The notes: generated by a model not told the origin, from the sequence alone. A stretch of DNA of 25,048 nucleotides from a virus (IMGVR_UViG_3300032278_000110:1-25048), one strand, 5' to 3'; numbered from the stretch's first letter, positions 9,623-25,048 are shown. Translations and numbers: made by a program.

Positions 9623-10093
9623 TCAGTCCTCCAAAGTTATGAGTTTATCTGTTATTACGAGGCATACAAAATCCCCGACGTGTGGTGTGGAGTGGTAAGG
9701 TCGGGTTTCCCAATCAGAGTCATAGTGTGGGTTGAGTCTCTCAAGCAGTTGTTCGCAAGCGAGGCGTAGTGGTTGTTTCACGAGACGCTGACCTTCGCTG
9801 GTTCTGAGGGGGACATAAGAGCCATCAGGACAGCGGACCATTATAGGGTATGCGGGACCAGCGACCGTTAGGCGAGGCCCCATGAGGTCTGCATAGTGCG
9901 ACCTTACAACATCGACTGTTTGGCTGAGATGCACAGCATGAGTCATTGGGAGTGATACATCCAAACGACCTTCGTGATGTGACCTGTAAGCCGACCGTAT
10001 TAATTCTGCCTCCTTGAGGGTAATGATGACCCCTAAATCATGAGGCGTCATCGGAGTTGCACTATATACGATTAATGACCCCGTGCCTTCCAT
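9623..10093 (-). CDS. Hypothetical protein (156 aa), leaderless
   Basis: Starts at ATG 10093, directly preceded by TGGTAGT and 25 nt from the TATA box, so the mRNA probably begins at the start codon. The protein begins MEGTGSLIVYSATPMTPH, has a segment LGVIITLKEAELIRSAYRSHH and a C-terminal part with YHSTPHVGDFVCLVITDK. There are several His residues but no recognisable metal or catalytic motif. Only two Cys residues are present and they are not paired as CxxC. It is followed by the 37-residue gene. I do not recognise a family. Confidence 0.7.
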   Translation of the reverse strand: MEGTGSLIVYSATPMTPHDLGVIITLKEAELIRSAYRSHHEGRLDVSLPMTHAVHLSQTVDVVRSHYADLMGPRLTVAGPAYPIMVRCPDGSYVPLRTSEGQRLVKQPLRLACEQLLERLNPHYDSDWETRPYHSTPHVGDFVCLVITDKLITLED

Positions 10094-10140
10094 ACTACCA
10101 TTACTTCATTTTCACTTATAAGCCTTTGCCTCTCACGAGA
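10094..10140 (-). promoter_or_regulatory. Promoter with TGGTAGT initiator
   Basis: Minus strand: GAGAGGCAAAGG, then CTTATAAG (10115-10122), then TGGTAGT (10094-10100) touching ATG 10093. AGTTCTCGTGAG lies just upstream of the BRE-like part. Confidence 0.7.
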
Positions 10141-11294: not shown

Positions 11295-11330
11295 CCGAAT
11301 GTTTATATGGTATTACTCTCTCCTATGAGT
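11295..11330 (+). promoter_or_regulatory. Promoter for the first cassette gene
   Basis: CCGAATGTTTATATGG with the TATA box at 11301-11310. Start expected near 11330. An ATG at 11325 is in frame with the main start 33 nt downstream, so a slightly longer leaderless product is possible. Confidence 0.65.
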
Positions 11331-11357
11331 AGGGCGGGAGGCCCGGGAGGTGAAAAA

Positions 11358-11663
11358 ATGGAAAATGAGAATTATTGGAATGAGTGTGAAAAGCACACCG
11401 GCGCGGCAACGTCGGCGACCGCCGAGAAAATCGGAAAAGACGGGGCATGGACTCTAAAATCGAGAGGACAGGCCAAAATCTTGGTCGGGTGCGTGGTGAA
11501 GGCCGAGTCCGAGTTCGCTGGACGCCGGGTGCGAGGAATGCACCTTGCGGTATGCGAGCATGGGCGAATCAAGGCCTCGCCCAGCCGCCGAGGTGCAATA
11601 ATCGAGGCAAAGCGGAGCCCCGATTGGTGCGCGAAGTGCCGAGATATCGTGGCCGCCCTGTGA
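11358..11663 (+). CDS. Small CxH/CxxC protein, paralogue A
   Basis: A 101-residue protein from ATG 11358, with GGGAGGTGA five bases upstream. It is clearly related to the gene at 12022: both start MEN.YW..C, share DGAWTLK.RG..KILVGC and SEFAGR, and both have AVCEHG (here C66, H68) and a C-terminal CxxC (C91, C94). The Cys/His set suggests one zinc site formed by CxH and CxxC. Sequence between the motifs is basic. It is the first of two tandem copies, each with its own promoter, and each followed about 100 bp after the stop by a similar CAAATAGGTCTG element. The family is not recognised; a nucleic-acid or host-protein-binding regulator is a guess. Confidence 0.75.
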   Translation: MENENYWNECEKHTGAATSATAEKIGKDGAWTLKSRGQAKILVGCVVKAESEFAGRRVRGMHLAVCEHGRIKASPSRRGAIIEAKRSPDWCAKCRDIVAAL

Positions 11664-11960: not shown

Positions 11961-11995
11961 GGTTTATATCTAATGACTTCTATTGTCGTGTAGGC
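11951..11995 (+). promoter_or_regulatory. Promoter for the second cassette gene
   Basis: GAGTTAGAAAGG followed by TTTATATC (11963-11970). Start expected near 11993 around GTCGTGTAGG. The GAGTTAGAAA part is shared with the ArdC-gene promoter. Confidence 0.7.
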
Positions 11996-12021
11996 CAAGA
12001 GGCCGGGAGGTGAGAAAAAAT

Positions 12022-12366
12022 ATGGAGAACTATTGGAGCAATTGCAAGAGGACTACCGGAGCCCACATTGGGCGAGCCGGGACCAAAGTGGCCGACGAGA
12101 TTGGCCGTGATGGAGCATGGACCCTTAAGGCGCGAGGAGAGCACAAGATTTTGGTCGGGTGTTTGGTGCGAGCCAAGAGCGAGTTCGCCGGGAGGAGCAT
12201 CCGTGACGAGAAAGGCCAGCCAGCGAGACACATCGCGGTCTGCGAGCACGGAAAAATCCTCGGCGGAATGTCGACGAGGAGAAAGGCGATAGACCTTGCG
12301 AAGCACGAGCCCCGCAACTGTGCTCAATGCCGAAAGGTAGCGAGCACCGATGTGGCGGCGACCTGA
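12022..12366 (+). CDS. Small CxH/CxxC protein, paralogue B
   Basis: A 114-residue protein from ATG 12022, with GGGAGGTGAG upstream. It aligns along its length with the product at 11358: MENYWSNC, DGAWTLKARG, KILVGC, SEFAGR, then HIAVCEHGK (C74, H76) and NCAQC (C100, C103). It has a 10-residue insert before HIAVC (RDEKGQPAR) and a different C-terminal tail. Conservation of the Cys/His set in spite of divergence elsewhere supports a structural zinc site. Tandem duplication with promoters and 3' elements suggests the cassette was copied as a unit. Function unknown. Confidence 0.75.
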   Translation: MENYWSNCKRTTGAHIGRAGTKVADEIGRDGAWTLKARGEHKILVGCLVRAKSEFAGRSIRDEKGQPARHIAVCEHGKILGGMSTRRKAIDLAKHEPRNCAQCRKVASTDVAAT

Positions 12367-12636: not shown

Positions 12637-12675
12637 ATCGTAGTAAAAGACCCCAAGACCCCTCCCTCACGCCCA
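12637..12675 (-). terminator. TTTTA-type element after the 228-aa gene
   Basis: Minus strand GGGGTCTTGGGGTC followed by TTTTACTACG. A stable hairpin is not evident, so it is weaker than its relatives, but it is placed downstream of the stop at 12810. Confidence 0.35.
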
Positions 12676-12809: not shown

Positions 12810-13496
12810 TCAGATACCCGAGTCTGTGACCCGGTTCTCGTGGTGGTGATAGTCGCACTCGGAACAGGCACTCGTGAAAGGAGTAATCTCCGCCCAGTCG
12901 CCTCGTCCCCCGTTGGTCCATGACTCGTCGCACTCAGTCCATGACCACGCCCCGCAGTCGGGACAGCAGGTCTGCGGTGGTCTGTTATTGTGGTCGGGTG
13001 TCTCTAAGTCCCTGACCCCCATACGAGGGTGCTCCCCACGACCGAACCTCTTCAGTTGTCGGTTCATGAGCATCATGTTCTGCACTCGCACGTCGAAGTC
13101 CTCGCACAGTTTCTCAAGTGCGCGACCTTCCCGCACATCGTCGCGCGTCGGCTTGTGGCTCATGAGGGATGGTCCCTCGTGATACCCATAGAGCAGGCGG
13201 CTCGTGAGTGCCCTCGCATTCGCTGAGCCGGAGTTGTAATCCCAACTCGCTGGGTGCGAACTCCAGAATATCTCCTCTGGATTCTGAGCATACCAAAGCA
13301 TCTCCACTACGCACTCCTTGAACTCGGCACTCCTCGTGGTCATCATTTGAGGTTCCTCCATGTGCATGGTCTGATACTCGATTTCCTCACGGTCGAAGTA
13401 ATACTCGTATGATTCGAGGACCTCATCCATTAGAGGTGTCTCGGGCTTGCCTATCTCGCAGAGTTCTTTGTCGCTTCTATCGTCGTTCTCATTCAT
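12810..13496 (-). CDS. Hypothetical protein (228 aa) with C-terminal zinc ribbon
   Basis: Starts at ATG 13496, with GGGAGGTGAG upstream. The first 170 residues are acidic and largely helical (MNENDDRSDKELCE; EVLESYEYYFDREEIEY; ALEKLCEDFDVRVQNMM). The C-terminus has a four-Cys ribbon, C178-x2-C181 and C211-x2-C214, with Trp/Asp-rich sequence and a HHH run after it. The leader is about 70 nt from the initiator-like TATGGTAGAG. It is the only gene of its unit and is preceded by the iteron-like region. A regulator or replication-associated DNA binder would fit the location, but no family is recognised. Confidence 0.75.
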   Translation of the reverse strand: MNENDDRSDKELCEIGKPETPLMDEVLESYEYYFDREEIEYQTMHMEEPQMMTTRSAEFKECVVEMLWYAQNPEEIFWSSHPASWDYNSGSANARALTSRLLYGYHEGPSLMSHKPTRDDVREGRALEKLCEDFDVRVQNMMLMNRQLKRFGRGEHPRMGVRDLETPDHNNRPPQTCCPDCGAWSWTECDESWTNGGRGDWAEITPFTSACSECDYHHHENRVTDSGI

Positions 13497-13564
13497 TCTT
13501 TCTCACCTCCCTGTCGGGTCTGACTCCCATTGTTTTGTCGAATCTTCATTTGGTCCGGCCTCCG

Positions 13565-13615
13565 CCCTACTCTACCATATGCGTCATACCTTATAAGGTT
13601 TTTGTAGTCGCGAGG
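13565..13615 (-). promoter_or_regulatory. Promoter for the 228-aa gene
   Basis: Minus strand CGCGACTACAAAAACCTTAT, box CCTTATAAGG at 13589-13598, then TATGGTAGAGTAG (13567-13579) as probable initiator. Confidence 0.7.
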
Positions 13616-17385: not shown

Positions 17386-17471
17386 GCCCAACTCCCCTTC
17401 TCACAACTCCAGCAGGCTCCGTTGAATTGTGGTCGTAATCTCATACCGCACTTCTCACACCGCTTGGTCAT
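17382..17471 (-). CDS. Tiny zinc-ribbon protein (29 aa)
   Basis: ATG 17471 overlaps the preceding stop as ATGA; TGA ends at 17382. C5-x2-C8-G and C20-x2-C23 (RCEKCGMR and ACWSCEKG) form a complete four-Cys ribbon in only 29 residues, with an aromatic and hydrophobic core between the two hairpins. Both ends overlap neighbouring frames. The Cys pattern makes chance unlikely. Confidence 0.6.
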   Translation of the reverse strand: MTKRCEKCGMRLRPQFNGACWSCEKGSWA

Positions 17472-17620
17472 TCTTCTTCATCTCCCACGAAATATACTCC
17501 GCAGGCCGGACACTCGATATGGGCTAACTCCCACCCCGGGTCGGGCTCAACGGTGATATACTCAGCAGGCTGGTCACATTTGCGGCAGGTCGTGCCGCAT
17601 GGTAATCTCTGCTTCGCCAT
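17468..17620 (-). CDS. Small zinc-ribbon protein (50 aa), leaderless
   Basis: Starts at ATG 17620, directly after TGGTAGT and about 25 nt from the TATA box, so translation is probably leaderless. The four-Cys ribbon is C12-x2-C15 and C37-x2-C40 (TCRKCDQ and ECPACGVYF), with an acidic tail (GDEEE). It is first in the seven-gene operon ending at 16180, whose genes mostly overlap by 4-8 nt. Single-ribbon proteins of this size often bind RNA polymerase or ribosomal components; here that is only a possibility. Confidence 0.7.
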   Translation of the reverse strand: MAKQRLPCGTTCRKCDQPAEYITVEPDPGWELAHIECPACGVYFVGDEEE

Positions 17621-17695
17621 ACTACCACATGGGCGTTCCCCCTTATAAGTCTTTCGAACTCTTGAGTCATGGGGGATTCGGGGATTGAGAACTCA
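17621..17695 (-). promoter_or_regulatory. Promoter of the nano-operon
   Basis: Minus strand ACTCAAGAGTTCGAAAGAC, box CTTATAAG at 17642-17649, initiator TGGTAGT at 17621-17627 adjoining ATG 17620. A second GAGAACTC is at 17688-17695. Confidence 0.75.
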
Positions 17696-17722
17696 TATTG
17701 TTCCAAAAAGTCGGTGAGAGTG

Positions 17723-17750
17723 AAAAAGGTCGCGCGGGGTGTGACCCCGC
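17723..17750 (-). terminator. Perfect hairpin terminator
   Basis: Minus strand GCGGGG/CCCCGC stem with a 5-nt loop, GCGACC, then five T. Lies just after the stop of the zinc-knuckle gene at 17758. Confidence 0.8.
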
Positions 17751-17757
17751 CTGTAAA

Positions 17758-18039
17758 TCACTCGTTCTTAGACTCTCGAAGAGCGTCAAAGACCTGCCGT
17801 CCTGTGAAGGTCGAACCACATGTCGGGCAAGCGCAGGTCTTGGTGTTCAACTCTGCATTTACCTCGCTGGTGTTCTCCACTTCCAGACCGATGGCCTTCT
17901 GCTCGATAACGGGGACGGGTCGGGGTGACCCAACTCTCCTCTTAAAGGAACAGGTCTTGATGTTGTGACCTACCCTTCCGCACTTCGAGCAAGCGTGTGC
18001 TTTTCTCGCATTCTTCATTTGTCCTCTGACTTCCGCCAT
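17758..18039 (-). CDS. Zinc-knuckle (CCHC) protein (93 aa), leaderless
   Basis: The start at ATG 18039 is preferred because TGGTAGT touches it and the TATA box lies 25 nt away; longer frames begin upstream of the predicted transcript. Residues 17-30 (ACSKCGRVGHNIKTC) match the CX2CX4HX4C zinc-knuckle consensus exactly, and residues 69-74 hold a second group C69-x-C71-x2-C74. The middle is low complexity. Zinc knuckles bind single-stranded nucleic acid and are common in retroviral Gag and eukaryotic RNA proteins, less so in archaea. It is a one-gene unit with its own promoter and terminator. RNA binding is likely. Confidence 0.78.
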   Translation of the reverse strand: MAEVRGQMKNARKAHACSKCGRVGHNIKTCSFKRRVGSPRPVPVIEQKAIGLEVENTSEVNAELNTKTCACPTCGSTFTGRQVFDALRESKNE

Positions 18040-18092
18040 ACTACCACATAGTCTAACAGGCATATAAACATTTCTGACTCAGGAGTTCTCCG
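18040..18092 (-). promoter_or_regulatory. Promoter of the zinc-knuckle gene
   Basis: Minus strand GGAGTTCTCC... hmm-free core: GGAGAACTCC (18082-18091) palindrome, CTGAGTCAGAAATG, box TGTTTATATG (18061-18070), then TGGTAGT (18040-18046) at ATG 18039. Confidence 0.72.
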
Positions 18093-18129
18093 GTTCAGAC
18101 GGGTGGCCGGTAGGCTCGGATAAGGCCAT

Positions 18130-18180
18130 AACTCAAGAGATGGAAACACTTATAAGGGGCAACCCACATCTGGTAGTATG
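18130..18180 (+). promoter_or_regulatory. Promoter of the 246-aa gene
   Basis: ACTCAAGAGATGGAAACACTTATAAGG in outline: BRE-like GGAAACA, box CTTATAAG (18149-18156), initiator TGGTAGT (18171-18177) directly followed by ATG 18178 of a short upstream ORF. Confidence 0.75.
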
Positions 18181-18222
18181 AAGCGGGAGGATTACGATAC
18201 CCCGAGGAGGTGTAAATTATGA
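18178..18222 (+). promoter_or_regulatory. 14-codon leaderless upstream ORF overlapping the main start
   Basis: ATG directly after TGGTAGT opens MKREDYDTPRRCKL and stops at TGA 18220-18222, sharing ATGA with the main ATG at 18219. The main ribosome-binding site GAGGAGGTG lies inside it. Likely translated leaderlessly and coupled to the main gene. Confidence 0.5.
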
Positions 18223-18959
18223 GTAAGAGTAAAGTCATTGAGCAAACAACGCAGAGACACGCAACGAGACAAGTATCAGCGACCTTCGTGAAGGTTGGAG
18301 ACACCGACAACCACGATGGGGAGTGGAGGAAGCCTTCTGAGAAGGGGACGGATGCCGACCTGATGCTTCTGAGAAGATTGGCTTCTACCTATGGAATCGA
18401 GATGCGACACTATTCTTGGAGCAACGATACCATAGAACTCGAAGATACGGTCAGAAAGAACGAGACCTTCTATGTGGAGATAACCGATGGGAGCGGTTCA
18501 ACCGAAGAGTTCGAGGTGGTGGAATCCCGACAGAAGTGGTTCCTTGAGAACATAGCACCCATTCTCGAAGCGAGCGGATGCGCGGTCATGCGACGAAAGG
18601 TGGTTGAGGAGAAGCAAAAGGCTCCTTACATCCAGAGCCGCTATCGTGAGACTAACATTGACGGGGAGAATCCTGATTGGGACCTGCCCGAGGGCGTATC
18701 TGTTGAGATTAGTGAATTGGACTTGACCGGCGGAAAGGTCGTCATAGAGGCGACCAGCGTGGGAGGGACGGCGACAAAGAACGGAGCCAACCTAACCGAG
18801 GACAGCGTGGAGAAGGCAATCAGATACCTCCACGACTGCATCATCGACACGCTAAGAGAGTTCGACTGCTGGGATGAGGACCTATACACCAGAGAGTGCC
18901 AGACCAACCTGTCTGCCGAGTCCATCCGAGTTTGCGACACAGCATTCCTGAGTGACTGA
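18219..18959 (+). CDS. Hypothetical protein (246 aa)
   Basis: Starts at ATG 18219, with GAGGAGGTG seven bases upstream. It is an acidic soluble protein with alternating charged helices and strands. Recognisable stretches are DADLMLLRRLASTYGIEMRHY, a central EEFEVVESRQKWFLENIAPI and a C-terminal helical part (EKAIRYLHDCIIDTLREFDCWD). Three Cys near the end are not spaced like a zinc ribbon. No catalytic motif or membrane segment is visible. It is a one-gene unit ending in a strong bidirectional hairpin. I do not recognise the family. Confidence 0.8.
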   Translation: MSKSKVIEQTTQRHATRQVSATFVKVGDTDNHDGEWRKPSEKGTDADLMLLRRLASTYGIEMRHYSWSNDTIELEDTVRKNETFYVEITDGSGSTEEFEVVESRQKWFLENIAPILEASGCAVMRRKVVEEKQKAPYIQSRYRETNIDGENPDWDLPEGVSVEISELDLTGGKVVIEATSVGGTATKNGANLTEDSVEKAIRYLHDCIIDTLREFDCWDEDLYTRECQTNLSAESIRVCDTAFLSD

Positions 18960-18982
18960 TTAGGTCACCCGGACGACATAAC

Positions 18983-19012
18983 CCCCCCTCGCGGGAGTCA
19001 CGGCGAGGGGGG
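18983..19012. terminator. Bidirectional hairpin between convergent genes
   Basis: CCCCCCTCGC/GCGAGGGGGG 10-bp stem with a 10-nt loop. It lies between the stops of the rightward 18219 gene and the leftward 19021 gene. GGTCACCC occurs on each side (18963-18970 and 19011-19018). Confidence 0.75.
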
Positions 19013-19020
19013 TCACCCTC

Positions 19021-19680
19021 TTAAGGGGTGGCGGTAGAGTCCTTCCATCTCTCCCTGTTGGGACCCCACTTCGAGTTGAACCCCGCTTGATGCTCACACC
19101 AATCATCGACCGCTTGTTCGAGCGTCACATCGGGAAGGTCGGGAACCATAATGTCCTCGGCTTCGCAGATTGAGTCCCAACACCTTCTCAATAATGCTAA
19201 AAGAGATTCGGAATCGCAATCTCCCGCCCGGAGCTCGGCACAGTATGCTCTTGCGGTGCGGTCACAGTTTCTCATCCTGTTCGTCACTCCTCGGGGAACA
19301 GCGAGCCCATAACCAGCATTGTCGCATCTCACTATCTTCCATGTCTCGGCCTCGAAATTACCTATCTCCATAGTTATGGAGTCCACTCCATGCCACGACT
19401 TCTTAGGGAATATCTCACCCACTTCGCCTTCTCCGCGTATCAGAAGAGCCCCTGCATTAAGGACCCAAAACCGCTGACCCCGCATCGCTTGGTCCATCCA
19501 TCGGACAGACCTGCCTCGCATCCATTCTTGGTGCTCCGCAAACTCCTCATCAGTCATCCTTCTCGATTCATCACTCATGAAAGAGGGGAAGAACGGGTCC
19601 TCCCGTTGGTCCATACATCTGACCCAATCAGCCGCATTCTCAAAATCCTTATCACTCACATCACATCTTCTCTTATACAT
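19021..19680 (-). CDS. Hypothetical protein (219 aa)
   Basis: Starts at ATG 19680, with GGGAGTG six bases upstream. An acidic, Trp- and Cys-containing protein: an N-terminal helical part (DKDFENAADWVRCMDQRED), a beta-rich middle (RFWVLNAGALLIRGEGEVGE and WKIVRCDNAGYGLAVPRG), and a helical Cys-containing C-terminal part (LLALLRRCWDSICEAEDI). Cys residues are scattered and do not form a clear zinc site. It has its own promoter with an initiator-linked GTG upstream. Family not recognised. Confidence 0.77.
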   Translation of the reverse strand: MYKRRCDVSDKDFENAADWVRCMDQREDPFFPSFMSDESRRMTDEEFAEHQEWMRGRSVRWMDQAMRGQRFWVLNAGALLIRGEGEVGEIFPKKSWHGVDSITMEIGNFEAETWKIVRCDNAGYGLAVPRGVTNRMRNCDRTARAYCAELRAGDCDSESLLALLRRCWDSICEAEDIMVPDLPDVTLEQAVDDWCEHQAGFNSKWGPNRERWKDSTATP

Positions 19681-19745
19681 ATCTACACTCCCGCCTTTTT
19701 TCCGACACTACCATATAGGGGTTGCCGGATATAAACCTTTCGGAC
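19673..19745 (-). promoter_or_regulatory. Promoter and possible upstream ORF of the 219-aa gene
   Basis: Minus strand GAGTCCGAAAGG, box GTTTATATC (19729-19738), TGGTAGTGTC around 19706-19714. A GTG there opens an 11-codon ORF (MSEKRRECRYV) ending at 19673 and overlapping the main ATG 19680. GAGTTCTCC lies just upstream of the BRE-like part. Confidence 0.65.
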
Positions 19746-19976
19746 TCAGGAGAACTCACCCAACACCCACGAGAGACACAGGTAGTGAGGCTTTACCCCA
19801 AGCACTCGAATGCAATCTCGACCGCGCCCCACAACGACGGCCAAAAATTCTCCGGGGAAAGAGCGATGAAGAACCGCTCGTGTTCGAGTCTTCCCCTTAG
19901 AGTTGTATGGGCTCTCGACACCGTGATGACTCCGCAACGACCTATGAATGGGTCGCCGCTTTGCTGTTTTCTCCAT
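19746..19976 (-). CDS. Possible small basic protein (76 aa)
   Basis: ATG 19976 is preceded by GGAGGAG at proper distance, the main evidence for a gene. The product (MEKTAKRRPIHRSLRSHHG...) is Arg/His-rich without a recognisable domain. No TATA box is seen before it, a terminator-like hairpin (20013-20047) precedes it, and its 3' end runs into the promoter of the 219-residue gene. It may be a read-through gene of the 20190 unit or a chance frame. Confidence 0.4.
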   Translation of the reverse strand: MEKTAKRRPIHRSLRSHHGVESPYNSKGKTRTRAVLHRSFPGEFLAVVVGRGRDCIRVLGVKPHYLCLSWVLGEFS

Positions 19977-20012
19977 CTTTACTCCTCCACGATTGCAGTC
20001 GGTCAGGAGCCG

Positions 20013-20047
20013 AAAAACCCTCAAATTGTAATGAGATGAAGTGAGGG
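20013..20047 (-). terminator. Hairpin plus T-run terminator
   Basis: Minus strand CCCTCA/TGAGGG stem (20042-20047/20018-20023) with an 18-nt loop, then TTTTT. Probably ends the transcript of the gene stopping at 20190. Confidence 0.55.
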
Positions 20048-20086
20048 GGGAGAAACACGGGTCAGTTGGCCCTTCCTCGCGCTACC

Positions 20087-20160
20087 ATCCAGCACACGGC
20101 TCGAATAGATGGACCGGCGTGTCCCCGTGTCGCGTGTGGCCGGTCCAGCACACGCAGGGT
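20087..20160. repeat. Large inverted repeat with flanking direct repeats
   Basis: GGACCGGC/GCCGGTCC arms of 8 bp (about 20112-20119/20139-20146) with a GT-rich loop. TCCAGCACACG occurs on both sides. It lies in the 3' region of the gene ending at 20190; it could fold in the mRNA or be a protein site. Confidence 0.5.
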
Positions 20161-20189
20161 CTGGTCATCCTAACGATAGGGTGAGTTGT

Positions 20190-20678
20190 TCAGGAGGTGG
20201 TAGTGGGTTCTGCCTCGGTGGATTTCTCCTCCTTAGCCTTCTCCGCTTCCTTCTCCTTCTTGGCCGCCTCGTCAGCGAGCTTCTGCACGATGGTCCGTGC
20301 CTTACTGCTCCACTTGGCGGGGTCTCTGCACAGTATGAGCATCTCCTTCCTGTTGGGGGCTCCTGTCTTTTGGAGCCTGTCCATATTCAGGTCAGTAACG
20401 CCCTTCTCGTGGGTTCCGGTCAGAACGATGGTGTATTTCTCGCTCCTGTTGCCGATGGGTGCGTCGGCTCGGGTTGTTAGATAACCTCGGACCTGCATCC
20501 CACCTATTTGTCGGCAACCCTTCTCGCGTATCAGACCCTTGATTCCGAATAGGTCATACTCGCCGTTGCCGTGTGTGTCGTCCTCGGCACTCTTCCACTT
20601 GCGCTTAGGCTCGGACGGTTTCTCTTCCGCCTTCTCTGCCTTTGCCTTGCTCTTGGTTGTCTTCTCAGATTTATTCAT
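20190..20678 (-). CDS. Hypothetical protein with charged low-complexity ends (162 aa)
   Basis: Starts at ATG 20678, with only a weak ribosome-binding site (GAGGAAGTGTGAG). Residues 1-30 are Lys/Glu/Ala-rich (TTKSKAKAEKAEEKPSEPK) and residues 125-162 form a Lys/Glu-rich helix; between them is a compact alpha/beta core containing GEYDLFGIKGLIREKG and YTIVLTGTHEKGVTDL. One possible reading is a nucleic-acid-binding core with disordered basic/acidic tails. Highly expressed DNA-organising proteins look similar in composition, but no family was recognised. The 5' leader contains an 18-codon leaderless ORF. Confidence 0.75.
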   Translation of the reverse strand: MNKSEKTTKSKAKAEKAEEKPSEPKRKWKSAEDDTHGNGEYDLFGIKGLIREKGCRQIGGMQVRGYLTTRADAPIGNRSEKYTIVLTGTHEKGVTDLNMDRLQKTGAPNRKEMLILCRDPAKWSSKARTIVQKLADEAAKKEKEAEKAKEEKSTEAEPTTTS

Positions 20679-20708
20679 TTTCTCACACTTCCTCGGTTAT
20701 CGGGCAGA

Positions 20709-20800
20709 TTACGACCCATCACTCCGGTTATCTTCCTCGTCACGGGTTTGCCTCCGCTTCGCCATACTACCACTACATGTTGGGGGCATATAAACCTTTT
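20709..20800 (-). promoter_or_regulatory. Promoter with 18-codon leaderless upstream ORF
   Basis: Minus strand AGTTCCAAAAGGTTTATATG (box 20787-20796), then TGGTAGT (20766-20772) touching ATG 20765 of MAKRRQTRDEEDNRSDGS, which stops at 20709, 30 nt before the main ATG 20678. The first six codons resemble the leaderless 17620 gene start (ATGGCGAAGC). Confidence 0.6.
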
Positions 20801-20883
20801 GGAACTCTGAGGTGTGGGGTGCTCAGACGCTGGGACTACTCTACCATGATACGCGCCTACGTAGAGGCCTCAGCGGTCAGGGA

Positions 20884-20930
20884 GGTAGTAAAAGGTCGCC
20901 GCAGAGCGAGTCGGCCCCCGACTCAGTCGC
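20884..20930. repeat. TAAAAG element with GAGTCGG/CCGACTC hairpin
   Basis: GTAGTAAAAGGTCGCC then GAGTCGG/CCGACTC arms around a CCC loop (20909-20926). Same orientation as the other elements, but here it sits between two divergent promoters where no leftward gene needs terminating. Confidence 0.55.
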
Positions 20931-20972
20931 GACTTAGAAACCATTATATGCCGCCGCCACAATGTTGTAGCA
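20930..20972 (+). promoter_or_regulatory. Promoter of the 142-aa gene
   Basis: CGACTTAGAAACC followed by ATTATATG (20943-20950); initiator-like GTTGTAGC (20964-20971) adjoins ATG 20972 of a 10-codon upstream ORF. Confidence 0.7.
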
Positions 20973-21004
20973 TGGGCCTGAGGCTATGGGGGGCAGGGAA
21001 ATGA
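20972..21004 (+). promoter_or_regulatory. 10-codon leaderless upstream ORF
   Basis: ATG 20972 opens MGLRLWGAGK and ends at TGA 21002-21004, sharing ATGA with the main start 21001. GGGGGGCAGGG before the main ATG is only a modest ribosome-binding site, so coupling may matter. Confidence 0.45.
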
Positions 21005-21429
21005 GTATCGTCTGTTCCGAGAATAAATGTGAAGAGCAAGCGAATGTATGGGTAGACGAAGGACCGTATTGCACGGCTCATGGAGTCAAACGGGCTGAAT
21101 ATCTCGAAACACACACGGTCCCAATAATTTCAATCGACGAATACCTCGATTTAGGGGACGACGCGATGGCGTTCTTTGACCCTGAGACTATGATTATCGG
21201 TGAGGCTTCGGAGGGGATGCTGACTCTTGAGGATGTAGACTCTACCATCAGATTAACAGTTAGCGAGGGGCTCACTACATACAGGGAACCGGTAGTAATG
21301 GCGAGATGCACATTCTGTGAGGCTGTGGCTATTGGTCATATTAACAAAGTGGGAGGGTGGCTCGCAAGACACTCACACTTCCACCAATTCTATTCTCCGG
21401 AGGACGACTATGTTGGGATGGACGCTTGA
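21001..21429 (+). CDS. Protein with two zinc-finger-like sites (142 aa)
   Basis: The start is taken at ATG 21001; an in-frame ATG five codons upstream (20986) is possible. N-terminal site: C5, C10, C24, H27 (VCSENKCEE ... YCTAHG). C-terminal site: C103-x2-C106 followed by H113 and a H-x-H-x-H group at 124-128 (CTFCEAVAIGH ... ARHSHFHQ), close to a C2H2 finger. The middle is acidic with a beta-like repeat (ETMIIGEASEGMLTLEDV). It may be a small DNA- or RNA-binding regulator. The family is unrecognised. Confidence 0.75.
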   Translation: MSIVCSENKCEEQANVWVDEGPYCTAHGVKRAEYLETHTVPIISIDEYLDLGDDAMAFFDPETMIIGEASEGMLTLEDVDSTIRLTVSEGLTTYREPVVMARCTFCEAVAIGHINKVGGWLARHSHFHQFYSPEDDYVGMDA

Positions 21430-21439
21430 CTCCAGAGAC

Positions 21440-21503
21440 GGATGGGTTTATATCCTATGACTTCAATGGTAGATTGATGGCGGAGGCCATGAAAAATGAC
21501 TGA
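21440..21503 (+). promoter_or_regulatory. Promoter and 8-codon upstream ORF before the helicase operon
   Basis: GAGACGGATGGG then TTTATATCC (21447-21455); initiator TGGTAGAT about 21467-21474. ATG 21477 opens MAEAMKND, stopping at 21503 and overlapping the main ATG 21496. Confidence 0.6.
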
Positions 21504-22128
21504 CGAGAAAAATAAGAGAAAATCCGCAGAAGAGGAATTACTTGAGAGGTATTCACCCGAGATGCCTATGGACTTCGTCGAAAGAACGCAGACCAATACC
21601 TTTACCGAGACAGTCTATACACTCTATAAATTGTATGACTCTAATAAGGTCAGCAAGGATGGGGAGACAAGTAAGAAGACCCCGTGGACCACGAAGCAAT
21701 TTGAGGAATGGGGCCACCATCTCAATGATGACGGGACCCGGAAAAGCGAGTTGTTCGAGGGAATACCGGCAGACCATAAGTATGTTGTGGCTCTTACCGA
21801 GACAGGCGAGTGGAAATCATTCAAGACCCGAAGGGAGATTACTATGGAGCGGGGGTGGAATAATCCTCTTGCGGGAGCGATGTATCCTTACGCGAGATGG
21901 AGTAAGCATGAGAAGGCAAGAATGGAGGTATATTCATCGGTCAAGACTATGACCTTAGCATTGAGCAAGGCACTTCCAGAGAATTGCGAAAACGAGATAG
22001 CATACCTCACCGCAAGAGACATAAGGGAAGCGGCTCTAATGCTTCTGAGTATCGAATCCCAGAGAAGGGAAGAAGCCGAGTTCTATCAGGAGATAGCGGA
22101 TATTCGGAGTGGGGATGAAGAGGAATGA
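21496..22128 (+). CDS. Hypothetical protein coupled to helicase (210 aa)
   Basis: Starts at ATG 21496 and ends overlapping the helicase start as ATGA. It is highly charged and helical, with Tyr/Trp-rich segments (FTETVYTLYKLYDSNK; LAGAMYPYARWSKHEKAR). C-terminal residues about 160-210 form an acidic helical region (LTARDIREAALMLLSIESQRR). No Cys pair, membrane segment or catalytic motif. Tight coupling to an SF2 helicase suggests a partner in viral replication or repair, for example a loader, primase accessory or single-strand-binding factor, but sequence evidence for a specific role is lacking. Confidence 0.78.
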   Translation: MTDEKNKRKSAEEELLERYSPEMPMDFVERTQTNTFTETVYTLYKLYDSNKVSKDGETSKKTPWTTKQFEEWGHHLNDDGTRKSELFEGIPADHKYVVALTETGEWKSFKTRREITMERGWNNPLAGAMYPYARWSKHEKARMEVYSSVKTMTLALSKALPENCENEIAYLTARDIREAALMLLSIESQRREEAEFYQEIADIRSGDEEE

Positions 22129-23750
22129 TTGAAGAAGAGAATTTCGTGCCTTCGGGCGTCTCGGAACGGCTAAAGAGCCTTCATGAATCCGATAGAGAAC
22201 ATTCCCTATACCTCTGGCAAGAAGGAGCAATTCAAGCGTGGTCTGGAGAGGAATATACGACCGTTGCTGGCGATACGGAAGAGAAAGAACGATTTCGAGG
22301 CATCTTTGCGGCGGTCACAGCCGCAGGTAAGACCTTAGCCGCCACCGAGTGCATTTGGGTCTGGCTTCAAGAGCACCCATTAGGGCAGATAACGGTCTTG
22401 GTCCCCAATCGAGGGCTTCAGAGACAATGGAAGAAGGAGATGCACAAGTGTTTTCCGACAATGAGGCCCATAGGTATGCTTGGAGGCGGTCGAAGGGACT
22501 TCCGACAAATAACCGTGGCGGTCATGAACACGGCGGCAAAAGGTCTTCCATACTCAGACGGGGACCACCTAATAGTCGTGGATGAGTGCCACAACATAGG
22601 CTCAGACTTCCGACAATATGCTATGAGAAATAACGAGCATACTGCGGTGCTGGGTTTGAGTGCAACTCCAGCACGGGAAGACCACGGACTCACTATCGTT
22701 GGAGAACTATGTGGGCCGGTCGTGTATGAGTATGGGTATGAGCAAGGGATTGCTGATGGAGTAATAGTCCCATTCCGAGTCAGAGCGGTTGAAGCGCCGC
22801 TGACCCACTATGAAAGGCACGGGTATTGGTCGCTGAGCCAAGAAATCAGAAAAGTCTCGTTCATCCTGAGGAGGAAATACGGAAATAACTCGAATTGGTT
22901 CGCCATCAGAGAAGACCCGGACGACCCGGATATGGCTTTGACCACTTTCAAGGACCTATGTATGCGGAGAAAGCGGCTGACTAACGAGTGCCACTATCGA
23001 GCAGAAGCCGTTGATGATATACTCAGACTTCACGACAACAACAAGACCATGATTTTCCACGAGAGAATCAAGCAGATAGAGTGGATGCACGAGAAGTATA
23101 GTGGCTCATGCCCCCCGACCTTGTTCGATTGCGAGACAGATTGGGAAGGAGCAGGGGTTGAGGAACCCGATTGTTCCGAGTGGGTGGGCCTATGGCCTGA
23201 GATATACCACGGTGAGCGCACTAAGAGTCACAATGATAGGGCATTAGAGCGATTTTCCGAGGGGGATTCTAAGATTCTCCTGTCCTGTAAGGCTCTTCGC
23301 GAGGGCATTGATGTTCCGGCTTGCGACCTTGGAATCATGGTGAGTGGGACTAATTCGGCTCGTGCAAGAGTGCAGACACTTGGTCGGTGCTTGCGCCGAG
23401 CGAAGGATAAGAACGAGGCAATAGTCTACCTTCTCTATGTGCCGAATACGACCGATGCGAAGGGCTTGAGGAATCTCAAATACGGGGGAAAACTCCCCGA
23501 CGGTATCATAGAGTGGTGGAAATACGACCCAGCGAAGGGGTTGAGCAAACAGGGCGAGGAAGAACGGCCCGAGTTGCCAGAGAGAAAGCCACAGAAGCCG
23601 AAAGAGAAACACTTATGCGAGGGGTGCTATAAGACCTTCTTCACAGAGTCAGCCGCAAAACCGGAGAATCACCATTGTTACCCGAGACTTGGAAGGACAG
23701 GGAGAAAACCGCTTGACCTATGGAGTGACTTAATTGGTCGAAAGCGATGA
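22125..23750 (+). CDS. SF2 DNA/RNA helicase with C-terminal zinc site
   Basis: A 541-residue superfamily 2 helicase. Motifs in order: Walker A variant AVTAAGKT (63-70), Ia LVPNRGLQRQW (92-102), II VVDECHN (151-157, DECH type), III GLSATPA (177-183), motif IV-like KTMIFHERIKQIE (308-320), V LSCKALREGIDVP (387-399), VI QTLGRCLRR (418-426). This resembles the XPB/RadD/type-I-restriction-like group, with a long insert between the two RecA-like domains. The C-terminal tail carries C499-x2-C502 and H517/H518-C519, a probable zinc site. It starts inside the previous gene (ATGA). Role in viral replication, repair or transcription is inferred; helicase identity is strong. Confidence 0.92.
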   Translation: MIEEENFVPSGVSERLKSLHESDREHSLYLWQEGAIQAWSGEEYTTVAGDTEEKERFRGIFAAVTAAGKTLAATECIWVWLQEHPLGQITVLVPNRGLQRQWKKEMHKCFPTMRPIGMLGGGRRDFRQITVAVMNTAAKGLPYSDGDHLIVVDECHNIGSDFRQYAMRNNEHTAVLGLSATPAREDHGLTIVGELCGPVVYEYGYEQGIADGVIVPFRVRAVEAPLTHYERHGYWSLSQEIRKVSFILRRKYGNNSNWFAIREDPDDPDMALTTFKDLCMRRKRLTNECHYRAEAVDDILRLHDNNKTMIFHERIKQIEWMHEKYSGSCPPTLFDCETDWEGAGVEEPDCSEWVGLWPEIYHGERTKSHNDRALERFSEGDSKILLSCKALREGIDVPACDLGIMVSGTNSARARVQTLGRCLRRAKDKNEAIVYLLYVPNTTDAKGLRNLKYGGKLPDGIIEWWKYDPAKGLSKQGEEERPELPERKPQKPKEKHLCEGCYKTFFTESAAKPENHHCYPRLGRTGRKPLDLWSDLIGRKR

Positions 23751-23910
23751 ATCAGACCACATCCATGAGTTGGTCCTTGAGGGTTTCGAGTGGGACGACA
23801 AGACCGGCATAGTAAAAGAGTCCCTGAGATGCAAAATCTGCTACCAAAAATCAGAGCGCACGATTGAGCGGGTTTGGTCGGTCGAAGAATATCTGCGGGG
23901 ACGCCGGTAG
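23734..23910 (+). CDS. Small CxxC protein overlapping helicase end (58 aa)
   Basis: The frame opens directly after an in-frame TAA with TTG 23734, with GGAGTGA six bases upstream, and stops at TAG 23910. It overlaps the helicase by 17 nt. The product is acidic and contains a single C33-x2-C36 pair (LRCKICYQKS) flanked by strands, ending in RVWSVEEYLRGRR. One pair alone would need a partner or dimer to bind zinc. The ribosome-binding site and overlap support a real gene; the TTG start is unusual. Confidence 0.6.
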   Translation: MVESDESDHIHELVLEGFEWDDKTGIVKESLRCKICYQKSERTIERVWSVEEYLRGRR

Positions 23911-23927
23911 AGCCAATAGACTCTTAC

Positions 23928-23973
23928 TCTTGAGTTAGAAACCATTATAAGCCCCCGCGCGTAGTGTGTAGTG
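23928..23973 (+). promoter_or_regulatory. Leaderless promoter of the ArdC-like gene
   Basis: GAGTTAGAAACC then ATTATAAG (23944-23951), with GTGTAGTG (23966-23973) touching ATG 23974. Confidence 0.75.
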
Positions 23974-25048
23974 ATGGCGAAGGCAAGTGGAGACTTTGGA
24001 CGCGGCATGAGTAAGGCCAAGCGCGAAGAGTTCGAGAAGGACTTAGCCGACAAGTTTATCGAGGCCATCAAGAAAGGCGAGGTTGGAGCATTCAAGTCCG
24101 GTTGGGTCAACATCGGAGGTAATGCTATGCCTCATAACCCACAGGGTCGCCCATATCGAGGCATTAACACAGTCATTCTCTGGATTAGCGGATTCGAGTA
24201 TACCTCTAACACTTGGGGGACCTATAACGCTTGGAAGAAGACCGGGAGAAAACACGCCATCCGGGAGAAGGAGTTCACCGTCGAGACAAACAAGGACGGT
24301 TCGACTTGGAAGAAGACCACAGAATACTATGGGGTCAAGAAGGGCGAGGGCGGCACAACGGTCGTCCTATGGAAGCCCTCAGCATATCGAAGCGAGAACA
24401 AGGACACAGGCGAGGAGGAAATCAGACAGAGTGTTTTGATGAGGTATTTCACGGTCTTCAACCGTGACCAAACTAATCTACCTGTGGAGAAGACTGATGT
24501 TGAACTCGAAGAAGCAGAGGACTTTTCAGACACCGAGGCGGAATTAGAGTTCTGTTTGGAGTATTATATCGACAACCCCAACAGGAGTGCAAAGAAAATC
24601 GGAGATATCATGCCCGACGGCAGTAAAGCCGAGGAAGTATGCTGGGTCATGAAGAGTGAAAACCCAATCCTCCTTAAGCACGGCGGAGATAGAGCGTTCT
24701 ATACCAAAGGAGCAGACAGGATTGCGCTCCCACTTCAAGAGCAATTCGATTCAAACGGTCACTATCTATCGGTCAAAGGACATGAGATTATCCACAGCAC
24801 CGGTCATCCACTTCGACTAAACCGAAAACTCGGAAATGCCTTCGGGAGTGATGATTACGCGAAAGAGGAATTGATAGCCGAGTTCGGGACCGCTATGTTG
24901 TTGGGCTCATTCGGCATACAGGGCGAGTTGAGGAATGTTGAGTATATCAACAATTGGGCGACCGTTCTGTCTAAGGAGCCACGATTCTTAATGACCGCCG
25001 CGCAGAGGGCGCAGAAAGCGGTCAATTATGTTCTTGAGCCGTGGCTTG
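23974..25048 (+). CDS. ardC: ArdC-type antirestriction/zincin protein, partial
   Basis: 358 codons are visible and the frame is open at the window end. The N-terminal domain (about 15-145) matches the ArdC N-domain: FEKDLADKFIEAIKKGE, NPQGRPYRGINTVILW and TWGTYNAWKKTG. The C-terminal domain is a zincin-like metallopeptidase with HEIIH at about residue 271 (GHEIIHSTGHPLRLNRK) and the downstream glutamate motif KEELIAEFGTAMLLG, then YINNWATVLSKEP and the AAQRAQKAV helix typical of the family. ArdC proteins bind single-stranded DNA and protect incoming DNA from host restriction. An insert rich in Asp/Glu lies between the two domains. Leaderless start from a strong promoter suggests early expression. 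Confidence 0.92.
   Translation, partial: MAKASGDFGRGMSKAKREEFEKDLADKFIEAIKKGEVGAFKSGWVNIGGNAMPHNPQGRPYRGINTVILWISGFEYTSNTWGTYNAWKKTGRKHAIREKEFTVETNKDGSTWKKTTEYYGVKKGEGGTTVVLWKPSAYRSENKDTGEEEIRQSVLMRYFTVFNRDQTNLPVEKTDVELEEAEDFSDTEAELEFCLEYYIDNPNRSAKKIGDIMPDGSKAEEVCWVMKSENPILLKHGGDRAFYTKGADRIALPLQEQFDSNGHYLSVKGHEIIHSTGHPLRLNRKLGNAFGSDDYAKEELIAEFGTAMLLGSFGIQGELRNVEYINNWATVLSKEPRFLMTAAQRAQKAVNYVLEPWL

Follow-up and report, generated by a model that had tools for sequence, protein, structure and literature searches.

Leaderless open reading frames (ORFs) for small proteins are described in mycobacteria, where some are "coupled" to the next gene through RTGA above expectation, and where the linkage and the leaderless initiation are maintained while the peptide is not (Shell et al., 2015; PMC4633059). 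In Haloferax volcanii, termination-reinitiation operates at overlapping genes, and removal of the Shine-Dalgarno (SD) site cut re-initiation by 20–80% and never abolished it (2019; PMC6728339); in Corynebacterium glutamicum, a synthetic bicistronic design with a leaderless fore-cistron needed both translation of the fore-cistron and the SD site (PMC10367133). Other reports describe upstream ORFs within long leaders of H. volcanii (PMC4983044) and a Methanosarcina small RNA that carries a leaderless small ORF (PMC11456600). Early genes of archaeal viruses have conserved sequence around strong promoters with a B recognition element (BRE) and a TATA box (PMC11065993). Here, we describe mini-ORFs that are predicted to be leaderless and may be coupled to their main genes by stop/start overlap in the presumed early region of a marine virus, the IMG/VR record IMGVR_UViG_3300032278_000110:1-25048 (25 kb; the whole stretch of 25,048 nt that was analysed is hereafter the window).

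The viral leaders resemble the mycobacterial coupled ORFs in having a start codon at the predicted first nucleotide of the RNA (+1), a small ORF, a stop overlapping the main start, and overlaps above chance. Unlike that bacterial system, in which starts were mapped and ribosome profiling was performed (PMC4633059), they lie behind archaeal-type promoters of viral early genes and are read from sequence alone. The ATGA-type overlap with an internal SD site is also found in H. volcanii; there it joins gene pairs of operons, whereas here a putatively leaderless mini-ORF stands at the 5′ end (PMC6728339). The C. glutamicum design likewise places a leaderless fore-cistron ahead of a gene, but it is engineered and bacterial (PMC10367133). 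The viruses of PMC11065993 also share sequence around strong BRE/TATA promoters of early genes; they belong to other families, and the available part of that source reports no mini-ORFs. The original prediction regarded the hand-over of leaderless ribosomes from a short ORF to an internal ribosome-binding site as an undescribed scheme, which does not hold in view of the RTGA-coupled leaderless small ORFs of mycobacteria (PMC4633059) and of termination-reinitiation in an archaeon (PMC6728339). The arrangement is of a kind known from mycobacteria; what is new is the setting, the early genes of archaeal viruses. A report of archaeal viruses with leaderless coupled mini-ORFs was not found in the literature searched, a weak negative with subscription journals mostly uncovered.

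Promoter module and predicted transcription start

Related viral contigs were recovered by a terminase scan, and an early region in the same order is common to the window and to G014 (75 kb; IMGVR_UViG_3300030104_003872), G016 (23 kb), and G017 (52 kb). The label "early" is presumptive, based on the types of gene present and on the promoter they share.

All nine modules of TATA box, TGGTAGT-like initiator, and start codon listed in the original prediction were found at their coordinates. The initiator is exactly TGGTAGT at six of them (10093, 17620, 18039, 18178, 19708, and 20765) and a variant at three: TTGTAGC (20972), TGGTAGA (21477), and TGTGTAGT (23974). The window holds 5 copies of TGGTAGTATG against 0.04 expected (0 of 100 shuffles reached 5) and 8 copies of TGGTAGT against 1.9 expected. 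It has about 16 promoters of this type, and the seven beyond the original nine (10575-, 10910-, 11304+, 11965+, 13595-, 14424-, and 16064-, the sign giving the strand) have another initiator and a leader, with no AUG at +1.

When promoters were scored with a matrix trained on 25 sites and distances were counted from the T of TATA, start codons across the virus family peaked sharply at 27–28 nt (15 and 7 close-clade sites, 8 and 13 distant sites at +27 and +28, respectively), and a second, broad group lay family-wide at about 39–62 nt. The sharp peak corresponds to predicted leaderless genes at the expected archaeal transcription start, and the broad group to genes with a leader. The spacing given originally, about 25 nt from the TATA box to TGGTAGT, is replaced by +27/+28 for the AUG, matching the family-wide peak. 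The AUGs of 10093, 17620, 18039, 18178, 20765, and 20972 lie exactly at +27, and those of 21477 and 23974 at +28; at 10093, 17620, 18039, and 23974 the initiator-linked codon opens the main gene, as had been predicted. Because archaeal spacing predicts transcription from +27/+28, the AUG would be the first codon of the RNA in most modules, and leaderless initiation is likely. At 19708 the module is present, but the GTG proposed as an upstream start lies at +25, 2 nt upstream of the predicted +1, and is probably outside the transcript.

The CTCNNGAG box, GAAA, and TATA are common to the presumed early genes of the window, G014, G016, G017, and G007, giving these genes shared sequence around strong BRE/TATA promoters, as in archaeal virus early regulons. 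Leaderless genes and mini-ORF leaders have the initiator GTAG(T/A/C)·ATG or close variants (the dot precedes the predicted first nucleotide of the RNA); in many of the other early leaders the initiator is GAGT·AG or GAGGT·AG, its A again at +27. Nearly all early promoters carry the CTCNNGAG palindrome or a closely similar sequence immediately before the BRE (for example, at 18132–18149 and 23927–23944 in the window, and in the same four relatives). The palindrome, which is probably a regulator site, was not observed where leaderless promoters serve other genes.

Mini-ORFs ending on the main start

The lengths and overlaps predicted for the upstream ORFs 18178–18222, 20972–21004, and 21477–21503 were reproduced, as was the end of 20765–20709, 30 nt before the main start at 20678. 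Among close-clade viruses, nine leaders have an AUG at +27/28 and a separate main start; for the G014 41665 and G016/G017 20190 genes, the AUG lies within 2–3 nt of this position, depending on the TATA chosen. The mini-ORF stop falls on the main start in 8 of the 9 and further upstream in one, and the overlap is ATGA or TAATG (1 or 4 nt) in 7 of the 9 leaders and 8 nt in one.

The frequency with which upstream ORFs terminate on the main start exceeds chance. Control frames overlapped in 17% of cases overall: 13 of the 69 frames taken from leaders that lack a +1 AUG, and 2 of the 18 other frames of the mini-ORF leaders themselves. The Fisher P for the excess is 3e-5, uncorrected for kinship. 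A null in which each leader was shuffled, its length varied by ±1 and the main start context kept, yielded overlap probabilities of 0.14–0.56 per leader; against it, the excess had a P of 0.0014 for seven independent leaders and of 0.006 when the shared 18219/20190-type leader was counted once. Adding three other leaders of the family with an AUG at +1 (one success, one run-in, and one near miss) resulted in 7 of 10 and P 0.008. The window cases had been chosen in the original prediction for their overlap, whereas those of the relatives had not; in G014, G016, and G017, which lay outside its view, 5 of 5 distinct leaders overlap. L013 8375, whose supposed main ORF overlaps the next promoter, and G025 39479, with a weak promoter score, were left out of the counts. 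SD-like sites (GAGGAGGTG, GGAGG, or GAGG) lie inside most mini-ORFs.

Orthologous leaders in related viruses

The arrangement is kept in the relatives at two genes. The leader of gene 21001 has 29 nt in the window (10 codons, ATGA), 41 nt in G014 (13 codons, TAATG), and 20 nt in G016/G017 (7 codons, ATGA); these three divergent lineages have no visible leader similarity and unrelated peptides, and all keep the +1 AUG and the stop/start overlap. The leaders of gene 20190 in G014 and G016 (44 nt) and in G017 (53 nt) all end in ATGA, and a 1-nt and an 8-nt indel between those of G016 and G017 jointly preserve the frame. The ArdC gene is predicted to be leaderless in the window and in all three relatives.

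Two different genes share an almost identical 30-nt leader, which is found at 18178–18222 in the window and ahead of gene 20190 in G014, G016, and G017. The window 18219 leader, AAGCGGGAGGATTACGATACCCCGAGGAGGTG, ends in ATGA in both uses, and the reading frame through the shared part differs. Because a near-identical leader precedes 18219 in the window and 20190 in the relatives, leaders appear to move between genes or to be copied. Scanning with the shared leader GGGAGGANTRCGAWACCCCGAGGAGGTG added no contig to those known from other scans. A conserved RNA structure within this leader was dropped as evidence, as none of its 5 pairs covaried.

Hairpin leaders

A feature absent from the original prediction is the 5′-terminal hairpin followed by an SD site. 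Early leaders without a +1 AUG often open with a short GC hairpin from nucleotide 2–3 (3–4 bp, with loops such as GGAA, GAAA, or AAGA); examples are GGGC-GGGAG-GCCC, GGCC-AAGA-GGCC, CGGC-GGAA-GCCG, and GCGC-GAAAA-GCGC, and such leaders occur in the window and among the early leaders of G014, G007, G006, and G017. Compared with shuffles, hairpins reached p ≤ 0.05 in 10 of 24 leaders without a +1 AUG (Fisher combined 5e-9), in 1 of 10 leaderless genes (combined 0.91), and in 1 of 9 mini-ORF leaders (0.08). In 13 hand-aligned hairpins every stem pair is Watson-Crick, and pair 2 covaries (G-C in 8, C-G in 5); as these were selected for forming hairpins, significance is taken from the shuffle test of the 24 leaders. 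The first 14 nt of the mini-ORF 21477–21503 can also fold as a hairpin, ATGGC-GGAG-GCCAT.

Tentatively, a single promoter type in this archaeal virus clade might serve early messages with three different 5′ ends, which open with a leaderless gene, with a coupled leaderless mini-ORF, or with a covarying 5′-terminal hairpin that replaces the +1 AUG and precedes an SD site. Hairpin and mini-ORF could then be alternative controls of ribosome access, between which genes such as 18219 and 21496 switch in evolution.

Proposed mechanism and alternative explanations

The best single explanation, with a probability of about 0.5, is that leaderless mini-ORFs are coupled to the main gene by stop/start overlap. 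A presumed early promoter consists, in order, of the upstream CTCNNGAG palindrome, the BRE (GAAA), the TATA box, and a GTAG-type initiator. RNA polymerase would start 27–28 nt past the T of TATA, so that the AUG becomes the first codon of the RNA at TGGTAGT·ATG promoters, and archaeal ribosomes, which are able to load on a 5′-terminal AUG, would do so here. A main-gene AUG at +1 would make the message plainly leaderless, whereas from an AUG that does not begin the main gene ribosomes would translate a 7–18 codon ORF spanning the SD site of the gene and terminate on or near its start, mostly at ATGA or TAATG. The ribosomes or their small subunits would restart there with the assistance of the SD site; the stop/start overlap would matter, and the peptide sequence would not. 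The excess of overlaps and the keeping of the arrangement at 21001 and 20190 are consistent with the predicted hand-over from short ORF to gene.

Several observations weigh against coupling. The original prediction would have been contradicted by relatives that keep the initiator without the upstream start and stop, and this was seen at two genes, though not at 21001 and 20190: the upstream AUG of gene 21496 is absent in G014 (TGGTAGT·ATAG) and in G016/G017 (TTGTAGATTG·AAAGG, reading ATTGAAAGG), and the 18219 leaders of G014 and G017 begin with GTAGCGG and GTAGCCGGAAGGC and have no mini-ORF. The mini-ORF peptides show no conservation. In G007 25070 the ORF from the +1 AUG runs 23 nt into the gene, and in G025 20566 the upstream ORF stops 3 nt short of it. 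Relatives carrying the early region are few. As coding evidence, peptide conservation was rejected: only AKPRGGE occurs in homologous leaders, and it coincides with the SD site.

The main rival, which we consider possible, is that the mini-ORFs are a by-product: the initiator and the leaderless class would fix A-T-G at +1, selection would only remove mini-ORFs that run into or fuse with the gene, and the overlap would be harmless, with no hand-over and with the main gene using its own SD site. An SD-like site is present at every mini-ORF gene, the AUG is freely lost at 21496 and 18219, and the window 20190 mini-ORF ends 30 nt early. Among outcomes other than run-in, overlap was preferred to an earlier stop at only P 0.05; this weak preference limits the case for coupling, and because of it coupling is favoured, weakly, over mere avoidance of interference. 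Equally harmless early stops would also be expected under the by-product account, but they are rare in the nine close-clade leaders (1 against 8 overlaps), and the 21001 arrangement was kept in three lineages despite complete leader turnover. It is unlikely that transcription starts a few nucleotides off, either from the TAG purine within TGGTAGT or from a point upstream of it, which would leave a short leader and mini-ORFs that are not leaderless. GTAG does occur in both initiator classes, with an offset of about 4 nt, and the start is placed here by sequence only; that purine, however, is only 24 nt from the T of TATA, which is shorter than usual for archaea, and the first A of hairpin-type leaders lies at the same +27. 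An attenuator-like tuning of early expression, in which the mini-ORF diverts ribosomes from the gene or stalls them conditionally, would suit its location over the SD site and the cysteine/redox sensing proposed for some mycobacterial leaderless small ORFs (PMC4633059), but the peptides of the 21001 lineages are entirely different and none is conserved, which makes this account improbable.

Features of the window and virus affiliation

Up to about 8.3 kb, the window carries portal, capsid-region, exonuclease, and terminase genes; beyond these come numerous small genes together with a helicase and an ArdC-like anti-restriction gene. The host is predicted to be an archaeon because the promoters are of the BRE/TATA type and because genes for an RFC-type clamp loader, an ERCC4 domain, and a family B polymerase are present in relatives. 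The virus is probably a tailed virus of a marine archaeon. Host scans of the genome collection with TerL and with RFC gave no match, and the phage records held no near relative of the terminase, the G014 helicase, or the 1260-2225 protein. Scans with the helicase alone and with 18219 alone found no relatives; a two-sequence helicase alignment as query recovered G016 and G017, and a four-sequence alignment returned the same patterns again.

Table 1. Promoters, leaderless starts, mini-ORFs, and hairpin leaders in the window (leaderless status is predicted)
Feature	Coordinates	Strand	Basis or remark
TATA to TGGTAGT·ATG, leaderless start of gene 9623-10093	10091..10121	-	ATG 27 nt from T of TATA
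Hairpin-type leader: A, GGGC-GGGAG-GCCC, then GGGAGGTG	11331..11353	+	
Hairpin-type leader: A, GGCC-AAGA-GGCC, then GGGAGGTG	11992..12012	+	
Hairpin-type leader of gene 12810-13496: GGC-GGAG-GCC near 5′ end	13557..13568	-	
TATA to TGGTAGT·ATG, leaderless start of 50-aa gene 17468-17620	17618..17648	-	ATG at +27; protein homologue in G007
TATA to TGGTAGT·ATG, leaderless start of 93-aa gene 17758-18039	18037..18068	-	ATG at +27
Early promoter of gene 18219, TATA to predicted +1	18150..18178	+	Spacing
Leaderless mini-ORF, 14 codons, stop TGA within ATGA of gene 18219	18178..18222	+	Sequence; G014 and G017 with other leader without mini-ORF
TATA and TGGTAGT of gene 19021-19680, predicted +1 = G19706	19706..19735	-	Spacing
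Early promoter of gene 20190-20678	20765..20794	-	Promoter scan
Leaderless mini-ORF, 18 codons, stop 30 nt before main start 20678	20709..20765	-	Orthologues in G014, G016, and G017 end in ATGA instead
Early promoter of gene 21001-21429	20944..20972	+	Promoter scan
Leaderless mini-ORF, 10 codons, stop in ATGA of gene 21001	20972..21004	+	+1 AUG and overlapping stop kept in G014, G016/G017
Early promoter of gene 21496-22128	21447..21477	+	Promoter scan, spacing
Leaderless mini-ORF, 8 codons, 8-nt overlap with main start (ATGACTGA of 21496)	21477..21503	+	Sequence
Promoter and leaderless start of ArdC-like anti-restriction gene	23945..23976	+	ATG at +27/28 in window, G014, G016, G017; ArdC domains

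In addition, two similar-looking tandem proteins are encoded at 11307–11663 and 11983–12366, each with its own TATA box, hairpin leader, and SD site, and are probably a duplication. A TCTTTTACTAC-like sequence recurs on the minus strand of the window downstream of minus-strand genes, near 12645, 14025, 16160, and 20890, and is perhaps a transcription terminator. At L032:7545-7650, L034:9104-9205, and L022:7281-7390, an early promoter is followed by AUGUAGGGGG, with no long ORF directly after. Over about 100 nt these elements form a fold (z -2.7 to -4.6) that a long stem closes; they gave no match in Rfam and contain CCUCC stretches able to pair with SD sites; they may represent a viral small RNA.

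Implications

If the proposed coupling is correct, leaderless-initiated coupling would occur not only in mycobacteria but also in archaeal viruses, and would provide a cheap way of joining leaderless loading with SD-dependent translation. Archaeal reporter strains would allow a direct test of the switch in leader type at one gene between related viruses. Gene annotation in such viruses would also become sharper, as main starts would be readable from the promoter spacing.

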